A stretch of 35,720 nucleotides of DNA, taken from positions 1 through 35,720 of the forward strand of contig DASRZP010000074.1 in assembly GCA_035686305.1 (NCBI GenBank), given 5' to 3'. Numbering within the stretch: position 1 is the stretch's first letter; the number at the start of each line of letters is the position of its first letter. The translations under genes were made by a program, and so were the position numbers. Below are positions 23,803-35,501 of this stretch, in pieces. The notes beneath the pieces were generated by a model. It did no database searches. It had not been told where the DNA came from and was given only the letters and a program-made list of their open reading frames with translations. This DNA comes from Thermodesulfovibrionales bacterium. Its GTDB lineage: Bacteria > Nitrospirota > Thermodesulfovibrionia > Thermodesulfovibrionales > UBA9159.

Positions 23803-25170
23803 TCAACGCAAGAGCGCCTTCAACCCCCTCACCGCCCCTTCCGGAGAGGAATAGACGGGAATCCGCGCCTTTTCCAGGAGTACGGTCAGTCTCGCTGAAA
23901 TCCCGCCCTCCGTCACGTGGAAAACCATGGGCTTTCTTGTGCTCTCCCTGAAGGACTTCGCAAGCCCGGCAAGGTCTTCGGTTATTCCCGGTATATTCGG
24001 CAGGGCGATGATCAGGAAACCGTCGTAGTCATCCCTGAGTTCGTCCAGGACCCTCTTGTAATCCTCGTCAGTGACCTGGGCGGTGAGATCTACCGGGTTG
24101 TTGATGCTGAAGAAAACAGGAAATACTTGTCTTAATCCCTCTTTCTTGTCTTTCCGGACTTCAGTGACCTCGAGCCCCTGCCTCATGCATTCATCCGCGG
24201 CAAGGACGCCTGAGCCCCCGCCGTTCGTTATGATAAGGACTCTCCTGGCTGCTCCCCCATTGCCAAGAGGGGGGGAGGGGAACCTCGGCACTCCCTGATG
24301 GGAAAGTGCCTTTGTCGCATCTATCAGCTCCTCAAAGTCGTTGGCCTCCCGCAATCCGAACTCCTTCAGGATCGAACGAAAGACTTCATATCTTCCGGCA
24401 AGCCTGCCTGTATGGGAGAAGGCCGCCTCCTGGCCGCTGCCCCCCTTTCCTGCCTTGAGGACAATAAGAGGTTTTCTTTCGGAGAGAGCCTTAGCCCTCG
24501 CTATGAACTTCCTTCCGTCAGCGACGGATTCAATATAGGAGACCACCACATCGGTACGGCTATCGCCTGAGAGATAGTCATAGAGGTCTGATTCGTCGAC
24601 ATCAACGGCGTTGCCATAGCCCACAGCCTTTGATATCCCGATATTTGCGGCTCTTATGGCGCTGAAGAGAGCGGTCATGACCCCGCCGCTCTGAGACACG
24701 ACTGCAACATTTCCCCTTTTCGGTCTCTTCAATCTTTCATAGGAAAGGAAGAAGGTGTCAAGCCTCTTGTACGGGTCATAAATGCCCATGCAGTTCGGTC
24801 CTATGATCCTTACGCCGATCTCCCTGCCGGTCCTCTTCACCTCTTCCTGGAGCCCAGTCTCCCCAGCCTCTGCAAAACCTGAACTGACGATGATCACGCA
24901 CTTTGCCCTGCCCTTGAGCTCTCTCAGTATGGCCGGCACTTCCGGTGCGGGCCTCATAACTACGGCAAGATCGACGGAATGGGGCAATGCCTTTATGACG
25001 GGGTAGGCCTTTATTTCCATGAGTTCGTTGTATTTGGGATTGACGGGGAAGACCTCTCCTCTGAATTTAAGGAGGTTCTTGAGCACCACGCCCCCGAGCT
25101 TGATTTCGGTATGCGCGGCACCAACGAGGGCAATGGATCGAGGATTAAAGAAAGGGTCAAGGGAGATCAT
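23803..25170 (-). CDS. ADP-forming acyl-CoA synthetase alpha-type subunit
   Basis: This enzyme class converts acyl-CoA + ADP + Pi to acid + CoA + ATP (or the reverse). The 455 residues comprise a CoA-binding Rossmann domain (PRSIALVGAAH, VFPVNPKY), a succinyl-CoA ligase-like domain (RIIGPNCMGIYDP, VVSQSGGVM), the phosphorylated His253 in AAFSHTGRLAG, and a C-terminal domain with VLIITNGGGSGVLAAD. The ATP-grasp beta part is absent, so it is an alpha subunit that needs a partner encoded elsewhere. It starts in an ATGA overlap with the E2 gene, so the two are translationally coupled. Confidence 0.87.
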   Translation of the reverse strand: MISLDPFFNPRSIALVGAAHTEIKLGGVVLKNLLKFRGEVFPVNPKYNELMEIKAYPVIKALPHSVDLAVVMRPAPEVPAILRELKGRAKCVIIVSSGFAEAGETGLQEEVKRTGREIGVRIIGPNCMGIYDPYKRLDTFFLSYERLKRPKRGNVAVVSQSGGVMTALFSAIRAANIGISKAVGYGNAVDVDESDLYDYLSGDSRTDVVVSYIESVADGRKFIARAKALSERKPLIVLKAGKGGSGQEAAFSHTGRLAGRYEVFRSILKEFGLREANDFEELIDATKALSHQGVPRFPSPPLGNGGAARRVLIITNGGGSGVLAADECMRQGLEVTEVRKDKKEGLRQVFPVFFSINNPVDLTAQVTDEDYKRVLDELRDDYDGFLIIALPNIPGITEDLAGLAKSFRESTRKPMVFHVTEGGISARLTVLLEKARIPVYSSPEGAVRGLKALLR

Positions 25171-27767: not shown

Positions 27768-28220
27768 ATGCTTAGGTTGTCAACAAGGGGACAGTACGGG
27801 GTCAGGGCCATGTTTGAGATATCCCGGGGTTATCCGGACGATCCTGTCACGATAAGGGAGATTTCAGAAAGGCAGGATGTTTCCGTGCCCTACCTTGAAC
27901 AGATACTGAACAAACTCAGAAGGGCCGGAATCATCAGGAGCGTGAAAGGGCCGGGAGGAGGATATCTCCTCGCAAGAAGGCCGAGGGAGATCACGATAGC
28001 CTCGATACTCAAGGAACTCGAAGGGCCTGTTGCCATAACCTCCTGCCTTGACCCGGAAGAAGGCTGTTCACGCATAGAAGGCTGTGTAACCCATCTCCTC
28101 TGGAAGTCGCTTGGTGCGAAGATCGAGGCCTTTCTCGAGACGATCACGCTCCATGACCTTCTTGCAAGAGAGCCTCTTCTGAAGTTTTCTCACGTCCATG
28201 AGGAGATCGATACGGCGTGA
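27768..28220 (+). CDS. iscR: IscR, Rrf2-family [2Fe-2S] transcriptional regulator
   Basis: IscR senses Fe-S status and represses isc genes when it carries a [2Fe-2S] cluster. The N-terminal winged helix reads MLRLSTRGQYGVRAMFEI with the Rrf2 recognition region VPYLEQILNKLRRAG and a GPGGGYLLAR wing. Cluster ligands are C93, C100, C106 and H109 (E. coli C92, C98, C104, H107), with one extra residue between the first two Cys. The protein has 150 residues. It heads the operon with the TusA-like, IscS-like and IscU genes, and its own operator overlaps the promoter. Confidence 0.93.
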   Translation: MLRLSTRGQYGVRAMFEISRGYPDDPVTIREISERQDVSVPYLEQILNKLRRAGIIRSVKGPGGGYLLARRPREITIASILKELEGPVAITSCLDPEEGCSRIEGCVTHLLWKSLGAKIEAFLETITLHDLLAREPLLKFSHVHEEIDTA

Positions 28221-28471
28221 CCCTCAAATTTGTTGAGAATATAAAGCCTGATGTTACGGCGGATATCGTGTATATGATGTGTCCCATGCATCTTCTCAAG
28301 CTCGATGAGCAGGTGAAGCAACTCGACAAGGGACAGATACTCGAGATCCTCACAGACTATGACGGCGCTTTGGAGGACATACCGGGCTGGTGCGAAAGGA
28401 CGGGGAACGAATTCCTCGGCATCGAGGAGACCGAGGATTACTATAAATTCTATATCAAGAAAGCGAGGTAA
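28217..28471 (+). CDS. TusA-like sulfur carrier protein with CPxH motif
   Basis: TusA-fold proteins carry persulfide sulfur on a Cys in CPxP. The 84 residues show MMCPMHLLKLDEQV (Cys22, with His where the second Pro is usual), then ILEILTDYDGALEDIPGWCERTGNEFL, the normal TusA second half with its GW-C region. The start is GTG 28217 in a GTGA overlap with iscR. Lying between iscR and an IscS-like protein without PLP lysine, it is a candidate sulfur source or relay for IscU, which is an inference. Confidence 0.83.
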   Translation: MTLKFVENIKPDVTADIVYMMCPMHLLKLDEQVKQLDKGQILEILTDYDGALEDIPGWCERTGNEFLGIEETEDYYKFYIKKAR

Positions 28472-28473
28472 CT

Positions 28474-29691
28474 ATGAGGAAATGTTATTTCGACCATGTT
28501 GCGACAAATCCGCTCCATCCTCAGGTCTTCGAGGCGATGATGCCCTACTTCAACGAGGAATTCGGCAATCCCCTCAGTGTGTATGAGGCGGGGATGAAGG
28601 CCCGGAGTGCGATAGAGCATGCCCGCGGCCAGGTTGCATCCCTCATAAACTCCAAGCCCGCAGAGATCATCTTCACAGCCAGCGGGGCCGAATCGAATAA
28701 TTTTGCGCTCAGAGGTATTGCTCTCGCCCGTCAAAATGAGGGCAAGCACGTCATCGTTTCAAGGATGGAACACCATTCTGTCCTCAACTCTGCGCGGTTT
28801 CTCGAGAAGGCAGGTTTCACCGTCACCTATCTCCCCGTCGACAAATACGGCGTTGTCGACCCGGATACGGTAAAAAAGGCGATTACCAAAGAGACCGTCC
28901 TCCTATCGGTCATTCATGGAAGCAGCGAGGTCGGGACGATAGAGCCCATACGAGAGATCTCAAGAATAGCAAAGGAACGGGGTGTGGTATTCCATACCGA
29001 TGCCGTTGCATCTGCCGGCAATGTCCCTCTGGATGTCAAGGAACTCGGCGCAGATCTTGTGAGTATGGCTGCGCATCAGTTTTACGGACCGAAAGGAGCA
29101 GCGGCATTGTTCGTAAGAGAGGGATTGAGGATCGTCCCCTTGATCTATGGAGGCATACAGGAGGGCGGCAGAAGGGCCGGCACGGAAAATGTCCCTGCCA
29201 TCGTCGGGATGGGAAAGGCTGCCGAGCTGGCAAAGACAGAGATGAATGCCAGGATCGGGCATGTGAAAGGATTGAAAGACAGGCTCATCAGCGGGGCACT
29301 GAGCGTTGAGAATGTCTATCTCACAGGACATCCGACTGACAGACTCCCCGGGCATGCCAGCTTCACCGTGGAGTATATCGAGGGAGAATCGATGCTGCTC
29401 CTGCTCGCGGCAAAGGGGATCTCCTCAGCGAGCGGGTCTGCCTGCTCGTCGAAGGCACTGAAGGCGTCTCCTGTTTTACTCTCGATGGGAGTGCCCTCAA
29501 GCCTTGCGCAGGGGTCCATTGTCTTCACCCTGGGCAGAGGGAATTCGATGGAGGATATCGATTATTTCCTTACTGAATTTCCTCCGATCATAAAGAGACT
29601 GCGGGAGATATCTCCCTTTGCGAAAGGATGGGATGAAAAAGCTGAAGGTCAAACCTGTTACACAACGCCTTCTGATTCCCAGGAGCAATAA
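28474..29691 (+). CDS. IscS/NifS-like protein lacking the PLP-binding lysine
   Basis: The fold is that of class V cysteine desulfurases (405 residues; FGNPLSVYEAG, GGIQEGGRRAGTEN). The mobile-loop catalytic Cys is C324 in SGSACSSKA. By alignment to E. coli IscS, H104, D180 and H205 are kept (H100, D176, H201), but Lys206 is Gln202 in AAHQFYGPKG. Thr76, Asn155, Gln183 and Ser203 are also changed to A72, S151, A179 and A199. Canonical PLP chemistry therefore seems unlikely. Archaeoglobus fulgidus IscS, which has Asp at the lysine position, was reported to lack PLP and act with IscU in cluster assembly. A similar scaffold role is inferred. The start ATG 28474 follows the TusA-like gene by two bases. 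Confidence 0.88.
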   Translation: MRKCYFDHVATNPLHPQVFEAMMPYFNEEFGNPLSVYEAGMKARSAIEHARGQVASLINSKPAEIIFTASGAESNNFALRGIALARQNEGKHVIVSRMEHHSVLNSARFLEKAGFTVTYLPVDKYGVVDPDTVKKAITKETVLLSVIHGSSEVGTIEPIREISRIAKERGVVFHTDAVASAGNVPLDVKELGADLVSMAAHQFYGPKGAAALFVREGLRIVPLIYGGIQEGGRRAGTENVPAIVGMGKAAELAKTEMNARIGHVKGLKDRLISGALSVENVYLTGHPTDRLPGHASFTVEYIEGESMLLLLAAKGISSASGSACSSKALKASPVLLSMGVPSSLAQGSIVFTLGRGNSMEDIDYFLTEFPPIIKRLREISPFAKGWDEKAEGQTCYTTPSDSQEQ

Positions 29692-29732: not shown

Positions 29733-30104
29733 ATGTATAGCGAAAAAGTCATGGACCACTTCACAAACCCGAGGAACGTAGGGGAGATACCGGACGCCGA
29801 CGGAGTAGGCACGGAAGGGAACCCTACCTGCGGCGACGTCATGAAGATATCGATCAAAGTAGAAAATGGTAAGATCACCGATTGTAAATTCAAGACCTTT
29901 GGTTGCGGCGCTGCCATAGCCGTCAGCAGCATGGTAACAGAGATGGTAAAGGGCAAGACCATCGAAGAGGCTTTGGGGATAACAAAGGAATCAGTGGCAA
30001 AAGAGCTTGACGGACTCCCCCCCCAGAAGATGCACTGTTCAAACCTCGGTGCCGATGCGCTGAAGAAGGCTATTGAGGACTATAGGATGAAACATCCGGC
30101 GTAG
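29733..30104 (+). CDS. iscU: Fe-S cluster scaffold IscU/NifU N-terminal type
   Basis: IscU is the scaffold on which [2Fe-2S] clusters form. Ligands are C33 and D35 in NPTCGDVM, C58 in FGCGAAIA and C102 in MHCSNLGADAL; the HscA-recognition loop reads LPPQK (95-99). The length of 123 corresponds to the stand-alone IscU. GAGGAGG precedes ATG 29733. It closes the iscR operon. No hscA, hscB, iscA or fdx follows; tRNA-Ser is next. Confidence 0.95.
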   Translation: MYSEKVMDHFTNPRNVGEIPDADGVGTEGNPTCGDVMKISIKVENGKITDCKFKTFGCGAAIAVSSMVTEMVKGKTIEEALGITKESVAKELDGLPPQKMHCSNLGADALKKAIEDYRMKHPA

Positions 30105-30183: not shown

Positions 30184-30276
30184 GGAGAGGTGGCCGAGCT
30201 GGTCGAAGGCAGCCGCCTGCTAAGCGGTTGTGGGGGTAACACCTCACCCAGGGTTCGAATCCCTGCCTCTCCGCCA
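30184..30276 (+). tRNA. tRNA-Ser(GCT)
   Basis: The acceptor GGAGAGG pairs with CCTCTCC. The D-arm starts TGGCCGAG, the anticodon loop is CTGCTAA (anticodon GCT, reading AGC/AGU), and there is a long type II variable arm and the T-loop GGTTCGAATCC. Discriminator G and an encoded CCA (30274-30276) follow. Confidence 0.97.
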
Positions 30277-30359
30277 TCGACGGAAGCGGCAAGCACCGGG
30301 TCAGGGCTTTGACTCTGAGCTCACAAAATGCATACAAATACATGAGGAGGTCTCTCGAA

Positions 30360-30887
30360 ATGAGAAGGTTCTTGACGATCGGCCTAGGAGTTGTGCTCGT
30401 TTTCTCTTTCGGTCTCGGAGGTTGCAAAAAGAAGGAGGAACAACCCGTCCCGAAGGCTCCTCAGATGACGCCTGGAGGACAGATGCCACCGCCCGGCCAT
30501 GGCGAAGGTATGGGGATACAAAAAACTGAACTGAAGACAGTCGTGCCAGACAGCGTCAAGGGAAAATGGTCTGCGGTAAAGATCATGGTGGAAGACAAGA
30601 CGAGCAAGAAGACGGAGGAGTATACGATCAATCTCAACAGCGAGTTTAAGATTCCCAACTCTGACCTGAAACTTGCAGTGGGAGATTTTCTGCCGGACTT
30701 TAAGATGGACGCTGGAATGATTACTTCGACTTCCAATATGCCGAACAACCCGGCGGTGGGGATAAAGGTTTTTGAAGGCGATAAGGAGGTATTCAAAGGC
30801 TGGCTCTATTCGAAGTTCCCGACAATCCACCCCTTTGAACATCCGAAATTCGGACTTGCCCTCAAAGAAGGAGTGAAAAAAGGATAA
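30360..30887 (+). CDS. lipoprotein, DUF2155-like
   Basis: A signal sequence with a lipobox ending FGLGGC (Cys about residue 22) marks an exported lipoprotein. A Lys/Glu-rich and then Pro/Gly/Met-rich linker follows. The C-terminal domain contains FKIPNSDLKLAVGDFLPDF and VFKGWLYSKFPTIHPFEHP, which I take as a DUF2155-type domain from memory. Function is unknown. ATG 30360 is chosen because AGGAGG lies 10 bases upstream; in-frame ATGs at 30342 and 30309 would add a non-signal extension. The protein has 175 residues and lies between two tRNA genes. Confidence 0.78.
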   Translation: MRRFLTIGLGVVLVFSFGLGGCKKKEEQPVPKAPQMTPGGQMPPPGHGEGMGIQKTELKTVVPDSVKGKWSAVKIMVEDKTSKKTEEYTINLNSEFKIPNSDLKLAVGDFLPDFKMDAGMITSTSNMPNNPAVGIKVFEGDKEVFKGWLYSKFPTIHPFEHPKFGLALKEGVKKG

Positions 30888-30894
30888 AGGGGCA

Positions 30895-30971
30895 GCGCCC
30901 TTAGCTCAGCTGGATAGAGCGTCGGACTACGAATCCGCAGGTCGGGGGTTCGAATCCCTCAGGGCGCGCCA
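30895..30971 (+). tRNA. tRNA-Arg(ACG)
   Basis: Acceptor GCGCCCT pairs with AGGGCGC. The D-arm has AGCTCAGC, the anticodon stem-loop is CGGACTACGAATCCG with anticodon ACG, and the T-arm is GGGTTCGAATCC. CCA is encoded. This tRNA needs A34-to-inosine editing by TadA, whose gene starts 57 bases downstream. Confidence 0.97.
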
Positions 30972-31027
30972 CTCATCAAGGCAGACCTATTAGCAGCGGG
31001 TCATTCAGAGAGAGGGATGTATATTTT

Positions 31028-31459
31028 ATGGGGCTGGCCCTTGAAGAGGCCGGCCTCGCTTTTTCTGAAGGGGAAGTGCCTGTCGGCGCTGTGCTGGTAA
31101 GTAACGAGGGCATTATTATTTCCAGGGCACGCAACAAGAGGGAATCACTCCAGGACCCTACTGCCCACGCTGAAGTCATGGCATTGAGGGAAGGTGCATG
31201 CAAAGCCAACAGCTGGCGTTTAGCCGGAGCCACCCTATATGTGACCAAGGAGCCCTGTATCATGTGTGCAGGCGCGATGATAAACTCGAGGCTTGGCAGG
31301 CTCGTTTACGGCTGCAGGGACTCGAAGGGCGGAGCCGTCGGCAGTCTTTACAATTTGCTGGAAGACAAGAGACTGAACCATCAGGTCGAGGTTCTCTCAG
31401 GCGTTTTTGAAGAAGAATGCGCTTCTCTATTGAAGGAGTTTTTTGAAGAGCGGAGGTAA
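31028..31459 (+). CDS. tadA: tRNA-specific adenosine deaminase TadA
   Basis: TadA converts A34 to inosine in tRNA-Arg(ACG). Zinc and catalytic motifs are HAE (H47, E49) and PCIMC (C77, C80); VPVGAVLV and the C-terminal helix are as expected. The first ATG gives 143 residues, but the upstream frame reads RDVYFM directly before GLALEEA, which matches the usual N-terminus of the family, and no ATG, GTG or TTG lies there. An ATT at 30989 is the only near-cognate start. So either the protein is slightly short or an unusual start is used. Confidence 0.93.
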   Translation: MGLALEEAGLAFSEGEVPVGAVLVSNEGIIISRARNKRESLQDPTAHAEVMALREGACKANSWRLAGATLYVTKEPCIMCAGAMINSRLGRLVYGCRDSKGGAVGSLYNLLEDKRLNHQVEVLSGVFEEECASLLKEFFEERR

Positions 31460-31537
31460 AGGATCTTTCCGTTCCTGTTTCTTAATGAGGGCCCTTTGTT
31501 TTAAACTAAAAGCGCCCTTTGTTCACTCTTGTTCCAT

Positions 31538-31627
<90 letters not shown>

Positions 31628-31661: not shown

Positions 31662-32376
31662 TCAGTTTTCACCTTTTTGGCCGATTGTAACCCTTTTGTA
31701 ACTATCGGCCCTTTCCATCTTCTCTAAAGCTTCCCGGTGTAACTGTGTAACTTTCTCCGCCGCGCTCTTCAGGTCTGCTTCATTTACGATATTGTACCTG
31801 TCGAATACCGAGCGGGTTTTGTGTCCGCTGATCTTCATGCACACTCTTTCCGGGATAGCTGCCCTTACCATGTTTCTAACTGCCGTTCTTCTGAGGTCAT
31901 GGAAAATCTTGTCGTGCCTCTTTAAGTGTTTCCCTTGGCACTTCTCACAGGTAAGGCCCTTGCGCTGTTTCTTCTCTGATATTTTCGTGATCTCTCCGCA
32001 ATCCTTACACTTAAAATGCAGCATTCGGCCCATCTTCAATAACGCTGTATCCCAAGCGTCCCCGAAATCTTTTATCTGTTTCCCCTCTCTAAAGAAGACA
32101 TAAGGGCATTTCGGAAACTTCTCGTCTCTGAGAATCTCTTGATTTAGAAAGGTCTGGTACAGTTCCCCAGAAAGGTAGATAATCCTTGCTTCGTCGTTCT
32201 TTGTGGTTTCGGCTTCAAGAGTTATTTTCCCTTCGATCATATCAACCTGTTTCCATCGAAGGTCAAGAATCTCTTGCAATCTCATACCAGTATGGTATCC
32301 CTGAGCGAGTACAGGTTTTAAATAATCGGGTAGGGCCTCCTTGATCTGTAAATACTCTTCATGCTCAAAGTATCCC
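31662..32376 (-). pseudogene. tyrosine recombinase (phage-type integrase), N-terminal half missing
   Basis: The catalytic domain is present: box I Arg in [13 protein letters not shown], the HDLRR motif, SGHKTRSVF and the nucleophile Tyr in DRYN. Readable homology starts at [19 protein letters not shown] and stops exactly at the left boundary of the transposon (32377). A TGA lies a few codons beyond in frame, so the SAM-like core-binding domain and start are lost. An ATG at 32285 could give a 207-residue fragment. Between box I and HxxR the protein carries CKDC and CEKC pairs 19 residues apart, a zinc-ribbon insertion that is unusual in this family. Confidence 0.85.
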
Positions 32377-32428
32377 TGTGCACGCCATCAGTTTTTGATA
32401 CCAAAATCAGAAAGAATTGGGTAACACT
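32377..32428. repeat. left terminal inverted repeat and subterminal motif of the transposon
   Basis: Starts TGTGCACG. The core CAGTTTTTGATACCAA (32389-32404) matches the right end with one mismatch. Subterminal GGGTAACACT is at 32419-32428. The stop codon of the 339-residue transposase (32409-32407) lies within this end. Confidence 0.75.
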
Positions 32429-33426
32429 TTTCCATTGATGGTCACGGTTATAAATCCTTTCATTCTCAGCCAGGCCTCGACGGCGATGCGCCAGGCCGCT
32501 TGCGGCTGAACCCCTTCACCGCACAGTATATCACTCTGCAGGTTCGTTATCCAAACATAGGCATCCCTCCTTTCCCATTTAGAGAAACTCCTCTTGCCTG
32601 TGAAGTACACCCGGCAGGCATTGTTGCCGTTCAAGCATGGCCGAGGTCGGTGATTGAGATCATGTTCAACCGCCGAGGCATAGGCCTCCAGGTGTTCGCG
32701 CGGACAGGGCTTGTATGCGAGCCTGGCGGCAAGCCCGTTTTTCAGCTCGGCCTGCGCCTCCTCGATCGCGCCGTTGTAAGGTGGATAGTAAACCGGGCTG
32801 TTCAGCGGGAGTACAAAATACTCGGTCAGCACTTCATTGACCGCCGCATGATTGAGATTGCCGCCATTGTCCCGCTTAAGGAACAGGGGTGCCCCAAAAC
32901 GGTTGAAGGTTGCGGTAAGATAGCCTGATATCTCTTCGCCGCCGGGGACGTCTCCCGCCATGGGATCGAACTTATAGCGGGAAGCGAGGTCCTGTATTTG
33001 GCTCAGGTGTGCCTTGTCTGTGTCTCGCGGTCCGTATTCGCACGGGTCCATGGACCAAGCGACGTTCGGCACCTTCCAGCTGATGCGCCTCAGATTCTGA
33101 CGATAAGAGACGTTGAGATCATGCCGAGCCATGGCGACCATTCTCTTCAGCTGTCGCCTTGATATGCTCGTGGCGTAGCGTGCGTATAATGCACCGGTGC
33201 CCTGTGTGCGAGCACTCCCGTGAGACAACTGTTCTATATCCTGCTGGAGCCTCCCCAAATCAGGCGGCTTGACCTTGGGAGGACCCGGCTGCCGCACTAG
33301 AGGCGCATCTGCTTTGCGCCGCAGGCGCCACCGCGTAAAGCTCGGATAGGGCAGCCCGACGGCGCTGCAGATCCCCCGGTAGGGCATCCCGGTCCTCTCC
33401 CTGATCTGGTCAATAAGGACAAGCAT
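32407..33426 (-). CDS. DDE integrase-core transposase, second of the element
   Basis: The 339-residue protein begins with a helix-turn-helix-like region (TGMPYRGICSAVGLPYPSF). It then has a complete catalytic triad: D127 in AWSMDPCEYG, D186 in FLKRDNGG and E222 in PPYNGAIEEAQ, i.e. D-58-D-35-E, the spacing of the rve/IS3-IS481 type. The Asn-Gly before the Glu and the NHRPRPCLNG segment after it support a functional fold. It differs strongly from the other transposase of the same element. It starts five bases after the upstream HTH gene ends, with a weak ribosome site, and ends inside the left terminal repeat. Confidence 0.85.
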   Translation of the reverse strand: MLVLIDQIRERTGMPYRGICSAVGLPYPSFTRWRLRRKADAPLVRQPGPPKVKPPDLGRLQQDIEQLSHGSARTQGTGALYARYATSISRRQLKRMVAMARHDLNVSYRQNLRRISWKVPNVAWSMDPCEYGPRDTDKAHLSQIQDLASRYKFDPMAGDVPGGEEISGYLTATFNRFGAPLFLKRDNGGNLNHAAVNEVLTEYFVLPLNSPVYYPPYNGAIEEAQAELKNGLAARLAYKPCPREHLEAYASAVEHDLNHRPRPCLNGNNACRVYFTGKRSFSKWERRDAYVWITNLQSDILCGEGVQPQAAWRIAVEAWLRMKGFITVTINGKVLPNSF

Positions 33427-33431
33427 ACGAG

Positions 33432-33803
33432 TTAGCGTCTCTTCTTTCGCTTTCGTTTTTTTTCCGCAGAGGCCCTCTTTGTCGCGTTATGAAGCTCATA
33501 GGCATGCAGCATGTCCCGCACTTCCACGGTCTTTTGGGCGACGAAGAGCTGTTCCTGCAGTTCCGCAACCTCTTCCTGCAGCCGCTGCTTCTCCTCGTCC
33601 TGCGGTATGGTGGGCCTGCCGGGAGATCTATCCTCCATGGCCTCCGTCATCGCCTGTAAGGCCCTGCTCTCCCACTCGTAGTAGGTCTTACGGGACACGC
33701 CTAACCGGCGTGCGCCCTCCTCAGCCGTGATCTGGCCGTTGCGCACCGCAAACACTACTGCCGCCCGCTGGCGGGCTCGCTCCTTGTCCCGTGCATCACT
33801 CAT
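33432..33803 (-). CDS. small helix-turn-helix and coiled-coil protein of the transposon
   Basis: The 123-residue protein has an N-terminal HTH (VRNGQITAEEGARRLGVSRK followed by TYYEWE), a Gln/Glu-rich helix (KQRLQEEVAELQEQLFVAQK) that suggests a coiled coil, and a very basic tail. It resembles the OrfA-type DNA-binding partners of IS3 elements in plan but is encoded separately. ATG 33803 is preferred over 33812, because AGGAGG sits one base before 33812 and 10 bases before 33803. It could recruit or regulate the adjacent 339-residue transposase, which is an inference. Confidence 0.72.
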   Translation of the reverse strand: MSDARDKERARQRAAVVFAVRNGQITAEEGARRLGVSRKTYYEWESRALQAMTEAMEDRSPGRPTIPQDEEKQRLQEEVAELQEQLFVAQKTVEVRDMLHAYELHNATKRASAEKKRKRKKRR

Positions 33804-33884
33804 AAGTCTCATTCCTCCTGCGGATCGAGAGAAGATCGGGTTCGCCAGAAGCCCTATAATCGATTTTCTCGACCCGGCCCATAT

Positions 33885-34295
33885 CTAACCATCACCCGTT
33901 TTCCGCAAGGCAGGGCCTTCGGGTTTCATGTCCCTCGACTGAGCCGGCTCTGCTTTCCTTGCCTCCTGCGCCTTCGACAGCGTCCTCTCCAGCCTGCCCT
34001 GAGCCGTACTCGTCAGGAGCGTCAGTCTCTTCTTCTCCAACATCGCCTGAAGCCGTGGAGAGAGCGCCGGCCCTCTGTCCAGGCTCACCCTCGACTCCAG
34101 TGCCTGCAGCATTCCCTCCATCGCCCGCCTCTGCCACTGCGCAAGCACCATCCAGGGGATCGACAGCTCCCGGCATATCTCCGCGGGTCTCCTCCTCTCC
34201 GTCCATACCGACAGCACCGCCCGGCACTTCTCCATCGCCCCGAAGTTCAGCGTCTGCCGCTTCCTCTCGCCCTTTATCTTCTCCGTCTTCTCCAT
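33885..34295 (-). CDS. small HTH protein overlapping the transposase 3' end
   Basis: The 136-residue protein reads AMEKCRAVLSVWTERRRPAE then ICRELSIPWMVLAQW, a probable helix-turn-helix, followed by helical basic sequence. AAGGGAGATGACC precedes ATG 34295. Its whole length overlaps, in another frame, the last 135 codons of the 522-residue transposase and ends seven bases beyond that stop. Because its sequence looks like a normal folded DNA-binding protein, while the transposase tail there is Gly/Glu/Asp-rich and repetitive, this frame is probably the selected one. Confidence 0.68.
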   Translation of the reverse strand: MEKTEKIKGERKRQTLNFGAMEKCRAVLSVWTERRRPAEICRELSIPWMVLAQWQRRAMEGMLQALESRVSLDRGPALSPRLQAMLEKKRLTLLTSTAQGRLERTLSKAQEARKAEPAQSRDMKPEGPALRKTGDG

Positions 34296-35460
34296 GGTCA
34301 TCTCCCTTCTCGTTTAGATTGTAAACTACTTCCTGCGTGATGTCGTCGCTCTCAGCTTCCACCGACAAGCGCAGCCTGCCCTTCTCCGCCCGCAACACCA
34401 CCGATTGCCCCTCCATGCGCCCTACCATGTAAAACGGCAGCCTCGGTTTCCCCCTGAGCGCCATCTCGAGGAGATTGTCCTGGATGCCCTGTTCGATCGT
34501 CTTCCTCAACTCGCTCTGGATCTCAAAGTACCGGTCCGCGGGACACAGCCCGCCGATCCCCTGGTGCGGCCGCTTGTGGTTGTAGTACTTCACCCACTGC
34601 CGTATCCGCTCCCCTGCGTCCTCAAAGCTCTCAAACTGGGCCCTGCTCAGGAACTCCAAGTAGATTGTCTTCCAGAACCGCTCGATCTTGCCCAGCGTCA
34701 TCGGATGGTGAGGCTGTGATTTGATGTGGCGGATACGGTCTTTCTTCAGCTCCAACTCAAAGCGGCTGTTGCCCCGCCAGCTCGTGTACTGCCGTCCGTT
34801 GTCCGTAAGCATCTCCTTGGGCGGGTTGTACTCCGAGGCCGCACGGCGGTACACCTCGATGACGTTCTGCGCCGTCTGGCTCCTGAAGAGCTCCAGCCCT
34901 GTGATGTACCGGGAGTAATCGTCGATATACCCGATCAGGAACGCATAACGGCCCCCGAGGCGGAACGTGAAGATGTCCGTCTGCCATAGCTGGTTCGGCG
35001 TTGACCGTTCGAAGAACCGGGGTCGTGTCATATTGCGCTGCCGCTTCTTGGGTGGGGGCGTCATGAGCGATGACTCGTGAAGCGTCTTGCGAACAGTCTC
35101 GGGACTGGCGGAGAGAAAGAACATCCTCTTTAAAAGCTGCGATATGCGCTTGATGCCGAAGGGCGGATTGGCCTCCTTGATCTCCACGATCTTCTGCTTC
35201 ACCGGTGCGGGAAGGCTCCGCCCCTTGCCGTTGTGGCTCTTGGCGAGCCCGGCTTCCCCCTCACTACGATAGGCCCGAACCCACCGCCCCACCGTTCCAG
35301 TGCCCACTCCGCATTCCTGGCAGATCACCGAGACGGGGACGCTCTCCTCAAGGTGCTTCTTTACTATCTGAAGCTTGAAATCGGCTCCGAAAAAACGCCT
35401 CTTTTGCTCCGGAGCCTTCTTCTTTGCAGTGCTCCTCTGTACTGTCTTTACTGGTTCCAT
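33892..35460 (-). CDS. DDE transposase, IS481/rve-like, first gene of the element
   Basis: Domain order in 522 residues is an N-terminal HTH (FGADFKLQIVKKHLEESVPV, VGTGTVGRWVRAY), a second HTH (NPPFGIKRISQLLKR), then the integrase core with D162 (LWQTDIFTF), D220 (MLTDNGRQYTS) and E260 (GKIERFWKT), i.e. D-57-D-39-E, and NHKRPHQGIGG behind it. After about residue 385 the composition turns abruptly to Gly/Glu/Asp/Ala-rich because this frame runs over the gene at 33885-34295. ATG 35460 is chosen, with GAGAGGAG upstream; a GTG at 35469 is less likely. Confidence 0.85.
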   Translation of the reverse strand: MEPVKTVQRSTAKKKAPEQKRRFFGADFKLQIVKKHLEESVPVSVICQECGVGTGTVGRWVRAYRSEGEAGLAKSHNGKGRSLPAPVKQKIVEIKEANPPFGIKRISQLLKRMFFLSASPETVRKTLHESSLMTPPPKKRQRNMTRPRFFERSTPNQLWQTDIFTFRLGGRYAFLIGYIDDYSRYITGLELFRSQTAQNVIEVYRRAASEYNPPKEMLTDNGRQYTSWRGNSRFELELKKDRIRHIKSQPHHPMTLGKIERFWKTIYLEFLSRAQFESFEDAGERIRQWVKYYNHKRPHQGIGGLCPADRYFEIQSELRKTIEQGIQDNLLEMALRGKPRLPFYMVGRMEGQSVVLRAEKGRLRLSVEAESDDITQEVVYNLNEKGDDHGEDGEDKGREEAADAELRGDGEVPGGAVGMDGEEETRGDMPGAVDPLDGACAVAEAGDGGNAAGTGVEGEPGQRAGALSTASGDVGEEETDAPDEYGSGQAGEDAVEGAGGKESRAGSVEGHETRRPCLAENG

Positions 35461-35461
35461 C

Positions 35462-35501
35462 GATGACACTCCTCTCGTTTACCTCAACTTGGAGTGTCAC
35501 C
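35462..35501 (-). promoter_or_regulatory. inverted GTGACACTCC sites upstream of the transposase
   Basis: On the minus strand GGTGACACTCC and GGAGTGTCATC face each other 18 bases apart, ending at the transposase start. The outer copy is the subterminal motif shared with the left end, so the pair may be a transposase-binding site that doubles as an operator. Confidence 0.45.

Follow-up and report, generated by a model that had tools for sequence, protein, structure and literature searches.

The window (here, the whole 35,720-nucleotide stretch of DNA that was analyzed, from a bacterium of the Thermodesulfovibrionales) carries on its forward strand an operon with the gene order iscR-tusA-iscS-iscU. 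The third gene encodes a class V protein of 405 residues from the IscS/NifS family, which lacks both the lysine that would hold pyridoxal phosphate (PLP) and the substrate arginine and which we call variant IscS. The relevant features are the following.

27768..28220, + strand: iscR-like gene for an Rrf2 regulator, opening the operon (NCBIfam TIGR00738, above cut-off)
28217..28471, + strand: TusA-family sulfurtransferase gene (Pfam PF01206, 73.1 bits; cut-off, 28.6)
28280..28282, + strand: TGT codon of the catalytic Cys22 of TusA, in a CPMH motif (CPxP in many relatives)
28474..29691, + strand: variant iscS, IscS-like, without PLP lysine and substrate arginine (alignment, AlphaFold model)
29008..29010, + strand: codon of Ala179, at the site of E. 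coli IscS Gln183 (alignment)
29077..29079, + strand: CAG, Gln202, where E. coli IscS has the Schiff-base Lys206 (sequence, alignment)
29443..29445, + strand: TGC, Cys324, the retained sulfur-transfer cysteine, E. coli Cys328 (invariant in 138 Arg-less and 64 canonical proteins)
29521..29523, + strand: GTC, Val350, which replaces the invariant substrate arginine (Arg354 in E. coli IscS; alignment)
29733..30104, + strand: iscU scaffold gene (NCBIfam TIGR03419, 206.6 bits, above cut-off)

The iscR-like protein scores 139.8 bits against the IscR model TIGR02010, under the cut-off, and its place in the operon is kept in nearly all Thermodesulfovibrionia loci. The tusA gene begins with GTG, overlaps the stop codon of iscR, and is separated from variant iscS by 2 bases. 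The IscU partners have no altered active site, with C33, D35, C58, K99, H101, and C102 (window numbering) conserved across them, and a comparison of the IscU proteins accompanying Arg-less and canonical IscS recovered no divergent site at the thresholds used. Directly 3' of iscU (30184 to 31627) lie the tRNA genes Ser-GCT, Arg-ACG, and Ser-CGA among small genes, including a tRNA-adenosine-deaminase-like open reading frame. The right end of the window (31662 to 35469, minus strand) carries part of a phage-type integrase along with several genes that resemble transposases (rve and HTH domains) and is a mobile-element boundary adjoining a tRNA-Ser gene. Genes resembling ADP-forming acyl-CoA synthetases and acetyltransferase fusions occur near this operon (23803 to 25170) and also near a canonical nifU-nifS pair (L237, 5603 to 8311), probably by chance.

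The original prediction held that the codon at 29077 to 29079 is CAG, and a direct reading of 29074 to 29079 (cat cag) gives His201-Gln202 within AAHQFYGPKG. Alignment to E. coli IscS (b2530) likewise reproduces the claimed constant offset of 4 residues (H104/H100, D180/D176, H205/H201, K206/Q202, and C328/C324), the loss of four other PLP contacts (T76/A72, N155/S151, Q183/A179, and S203/A199), and the retention of Cys324, His100, Asp176, and His201. The same alignment adds a change that the original prediction did not contain, R354/V350, which is the strongest of the substitutions; we take E. coli Arg354 to bind the carboxylate of the substrate cysteine. A further substitution is T13/N12. 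Thus, of the features that mark a PLP-dependent cysteine desulfurase, the Schiff-base lysine and Arg354 are absent, and Cys328 and the class V fold are present. Variant IscS scores 248.7 bits against the class V profile PF00266 and falls short of the curated equivalog cut-offs of the NCBI models for both NifS (479.4 versus 530.75) and IscS (379.4 versus 643.2). An AlphaFold2 model built from 41 sequences has a mean pLDDT of 89.8; the Cys loop (residues 324 to 327) scores <50, in keeping with its being mobile. In the PDB, the model best matches human NFS1, as seen in ISC complexes, and Archaeoglobus fulgidus IscS, with TM scores of 0.88 to 0.91 on the query. From these residue changes, we infer that variant IscS is PLP independent.

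About 50 orthologs of the Thermodesulfovibrionia type (64 to 83% identity) all lack the lysine, having Gln or, in a few cases, Met, Glu, Leu, or Ile in its place. The presence of the altered site in every ortholog of the same order that was examined excludes both a sequencing error and a one-off event as its cause. Pairs of orthologs show a dN of 0.11 to 0.24 and a saturated dS of 2.2 to 3.6 (dN/dS, about 0.03 to 0.07), and this low dN against saturated dS shows purifying selection on the gene. Together with the retained cysteine, the intact IscU, and the conservation of the operon in more than 100 genomes, this gives good support to the earlier view of a repurposed partner of IscU rather than a decayed gene. 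A profile search of 296 genomes of the phylum separated an upper group of matches (at least about 590 bits) from lower ones (<540 bits); the upper-group members that were fetched all lack Arg354 and a few of them keep the lysine, and the lower group comprises canonical proteins and some more Arg-less ones. One well-sampled genus of the same order (family f9; G014, G026, G035, and others) yielded no match scoring as high as the Lys-less proteins.

We divided the distinct proteins by the presence or absence of Arg354, so that the arginine is found in 64/64 canonical proteins by definition. The Cys328 equivalent is present in all 138 distinct Arg-less and all 64 canonical proteins. At T13, T99, M151, N155, Q183, K206, H337, and R354, the residue is conserved in at least 95% of the canonical proteins and lost from most of the Arg-less ones. 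Independently of the sorting by Arg354, Lys206 is kept in just 4% and Gln183 in 2% of the Arg-less proteins, as against 64/64 for each in the canonical set. The sites that separate the two sets are the catalytic ones, N155, Q183, K206, and R354. Five distinct Nitrospirota proteins of the same clade (L200, L205, L206, L207, and L213) have the lysine and lack both Arg354 and Gln183, and three of them have tusA nearby. They are possible intermediates of the loss, hinting either that loss of the substrate site may precede that of the lysine or that the lysine can be regained.

Co-occurrence of the Lys-less homologs with iscU and the TusA-like gene had been proposed as a check, and it proved strongly positive. 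A same-strand tusA lies within 1.5 kb at 112 of 122 Arg-less loci and at none of 58 canonical ones, counts that are not independent, as the trait changes about twice on the tree (one or two independent pairs), so that Fisher values overstate the association. These 180 distinct loci each have at least 1.2 kb on both sides, and the canonical controls were drawn from the same searches, the same phylum, and archaea. After thinning at 70% identity, the linkage stands at 34/41 versus 0/32. Of the 122 distinct Arg-less loci, 10 have no nearby tusA. A separate search with E. coli TusA as query recovered tusA at 155 of 170 undereplicated Arg-less loci, with two matches at canonical loci, of which one belongs to a divergent Lys-less operon and the other lies on the opposite strand (E = 0.01). 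As this query gives the same picture, a bias of the TusA model toward Lys-less partners is ruled out. In Thermodesulfovibrionia and archaea, tusA precedes iscS, and in other bacteria it follows iscU or iscS; it is this persistence of the linkage across large divergence and rearrangement that carries the weight.

In the TusA partners, Cys22-Pro23 is invariant (124/124 distinct proteins), and the second proline of the motif is Pro in 58 and His in 66; the TusA of the window (CPMH) accordingly has no full CPxP. The residues of E. coli IscS that contact TusA (W45 and E49) show no special conservation in the Arg-less proteins, which neither aids nor excludes docking of TusA on variant IscS. At six Nitrospirota loci (L217, L220, L222, L227, L228, and L230), a Lys-less iscS is followed directly by tusA with no iscU nearby; there, the lysine site holds Pro, Gln, or Thr and is preceded by Gln.

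The A. fulgidus precedent, which the original prediction named as having Asp at the lysine site, is real: the protein of PDB 4EB5 was matched at 100% identity in one genome (G171). The archaeal relatives mostly have Asp at this site and Leu, Val, Ile, or, rarely, Glu in place of Arg354, and nearly all archaeal Lys-less iscS genes have tusA upstream. Often, an open reading frame of about 118 residues lies between the archaeal tusA and iscS, and it belongs to the DsrE family (PF02635, 77.5 bits), with the DsrE cysteine conserved in 32/33. Lys-less loci in Schekmanbacteria, Actinomycetota, Coatesbacteria, and Firestonebacteria also have a dsrE gene; none was found beside iscS at the canonical loci compared. 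In A. fulgidus, the crystallized copy directly follows dsrE, without tusA, and an 87% identical paralog lies in a tusA-dsrE-iscS-iscU array (L177 and L178); downstream of both copies lie iscU and a small HTH-containing gene. In a subset of archaeal Lys-less proteins (L180, L181, L185, L189, and L195), Asp180, the partner of the pyridine nitrogen, is also replaced by Asn, making the PLP site even more degraded. The best tree places the bacterial and archaeal Arg-less proteins in two groups, and a single clade is compatible with the AU test (p = 0.214).

The earlier suggestion to look for a second, canonical IscS or SufS led to a second and a third Lys-containing IscS/NifS in the same genome: a NifS with Lys and Arg adjoins a three-domain NifU, and another canonical IscS lies near rapZ and rpoN-like genes, both in operons other than that of variant iscS. 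The genome also has dsrA, well over the cut-off, three TusA genes over the cut-off, and several DsrE genes; with dsrA present, sulfide and sulfane sulfur are to be expected. Thus, cysteine-based supply and dissimilatory sulfur metabolism are both present, and the operon of variant iscS is an additional system. Most sampled genomes encode further homologs. Two of the DsrE-family genes lie near another tusA on contig 138 (L240, L250, and L251), an arrangement resembling the YTD/dsrEFH type II cluster of sulfate reducers (PMC13293266).

The reading that best fits these sequences and gene contexts, and that we regard as reasonably probable, is a PLP-independent persulfide relay from DsrE to TusA to Cys324 of variant IscS to IscU. 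Variant IscS would no longer make persulfide from cysteine, and TusA would be loaded with sulfane sulfur by DsrE-type proteins or another inorganic-sulfur source. TusA would then dock on variant IscS and pass the sulfur to Cys324 on its mobile loop, which would hand it to IscU or share it as a ligand of the cluster forming there. Variant IscS would thereby be a former cysteine desulfurase turned sulfur-relay subunit, which we likewise hold to be somewhat better than an even proposition. The relay would run opposite to the transfer from IscS to TusA in E. coli, whose two proteins have been crystallized as a sulfur-transfer complex (PMC2854127). Transfer between TusA and DsrE proceeds in both directions in vitro (PMC13293266), and DsrE can be persulfurated by sulfide (PMC3397948). 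We infer which way the sulfur flows, that the proteins make contact, and that PLP chemistry is absent; co-location gives no direction, and TusA might just receive sulfur or act as a regulator.

The main rival to the relay, with which it can be combined, follows the Archaeoglobus model, in which variant IscS is a structural co-scaffold only, its cysteine ligating the nascent cluster on IscU while free sulfide is the source, and TusA and DsrE have other tasks or serve only in sulfide loading. This would fit the published description of A. fulgidus IscS as being without both the lysine and desulfurase activity and providing a Cys ligand to [2Fe-2S] (PMC7585200; PMC9769115), the plentiful sulfide implied by dsrA in the window's genome, and the tusA-less neighborhood of the crystallized A. 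fulgidus copy beside dsrE. We nevertheless think it unlikely as the whole account because it leaves unexplained both the association of tusA with Arg-less loci, which the canonical loci do not share, and the position of dsrE between tusA and iscS in archaea. It is less probable still that variant IscS is a docking or regulatory subunit working with a canonical NifS or IscS, for instance by receiving persulfide via TusA, with cysteine remaining the ultimate source. The Lys-containing NifS and IscS of the window's genome, the additional homologs in most other sampled genomes, and the loading of TusA by E. coli IscS would suit such an arrangement; however, the canonical genes lie in separate operons, and one metagenome-assembled genome with a Lys-less protein (G044), which may be incomplete, has a single homolog.

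Noncovalent binding of PLP or PMP, with catalysis of another, Lys-free reaction on a sulfur compound, appears very improbable to us. The equivalents of His104 and Asp180, which stack on or bond the PLP ring, are mostly retained, the fold is predicted to be intact, and a figure legend in PMC9769115 presents the 4EB5 structure of A. fulgidus with PLP. Against this, Gln183 and Arg354 are lost, joined in the window's clade by Thr76, Asn155, and Ser203, and the lysine site varies freely (Q, D, E, M, L, I, P, S, T, N, and R), as would be expected of a relaxed site. That the gene is a pseudogene or a product of sequence error, a concern given that the sequence is known from a metagenome assembly only, has a negligible probability and can be set aside: the same changes recur across dozens of independent genomes, with the low dN/dS, the invariant cysteine, and an intact operon.

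Among known systems, A. fulgidus IscS (PDB 4EB5, 4HVK, and 4R5F) comes closest, sharing with variant IscS the replaced lysine, the retained cysteine, an iscU directly downstream, and the loss of the substrate arginine (to Leu) and of Gln183 (to Ala), and being a near-best structural match. It differs in that Asp rather than Gln replaces the lysine and Asn takes the place of the His before it; it is 42 to 44% identical in the structural alignment and falls in a separate clade near the archaeal canonical IscS in the best tree, for which the AU value given above applies. Methanosarcina acetivorans IscS1 is reported to be without the catalytic lysine (PMC7585200), a published description on which its likeness to variant IscS is based. 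The E. coli IscS-TusA pair involves the same two protein families and Cys-to-Cys persulfide transfer (PMC2854127), but there IscS is a PLP enzyme and the donor, whereas here TusA is the proposed donor. The minimal ISC system MIS (PMC12192291) resembles this operon in combining an IscS-like protein with IscU without carriers; it is defined by a cysteine desulfurase, whereas variant IscS lacks the catalytic residues and is accompanied by TusA, which places it outside MIS. The TusA-DsrE(FH) sulfane relay of dissimilatory sulfur metabolism uses the same families with conserved cysteines, but its known acceptor is DsrC in energy metabolism (PMC13293266), and here IscS/IscU is the proposed one. The existence of Lys-less IscS in A. 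fulgidus and M. acetivorans is already known (PMC7585200). We found no paper in the open-access text linking TusA or DsrE with Lys-less IscS and, in the open-access literature, no report of the bacterial family or of Arg loss as its common mark.

The A. fulgidus Lys-less IscS has so far been an oddity without a sulfur source; a family of such proteins in bacteria and archaea, accompanied in almost all cases by TusA and in some by DsrE, identifies the probable donor. The ISC, NIF, and SUF systems are described as drawing sulfur from cysteine via a PLP-dependent desulfurase. The placement of tusA beside variant iscS in many bacteria and archaea suggests that these organisms build Fe-S clusters from sulfur that was never in cysteine. 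We give an even chance to a broader proposal: a cysteine-independent ISC branch in anaerobic bacteria and archaea, in which a PLP-free IscS would receive inorganic sulfane sulfur from DsrE and TusA and deliver it to IscU. Such a branch would have either a single, very early origin or two separate ones, in which the same active site was lost convergently and TusA was acquired on each occasion. The Lys-less family would tie dissimilatory sulfur metabolism to Fe-S cluster assembly, and where genes of these lineages carry the annotation cysteine desulfurase, they probably do not encode that enzyme.
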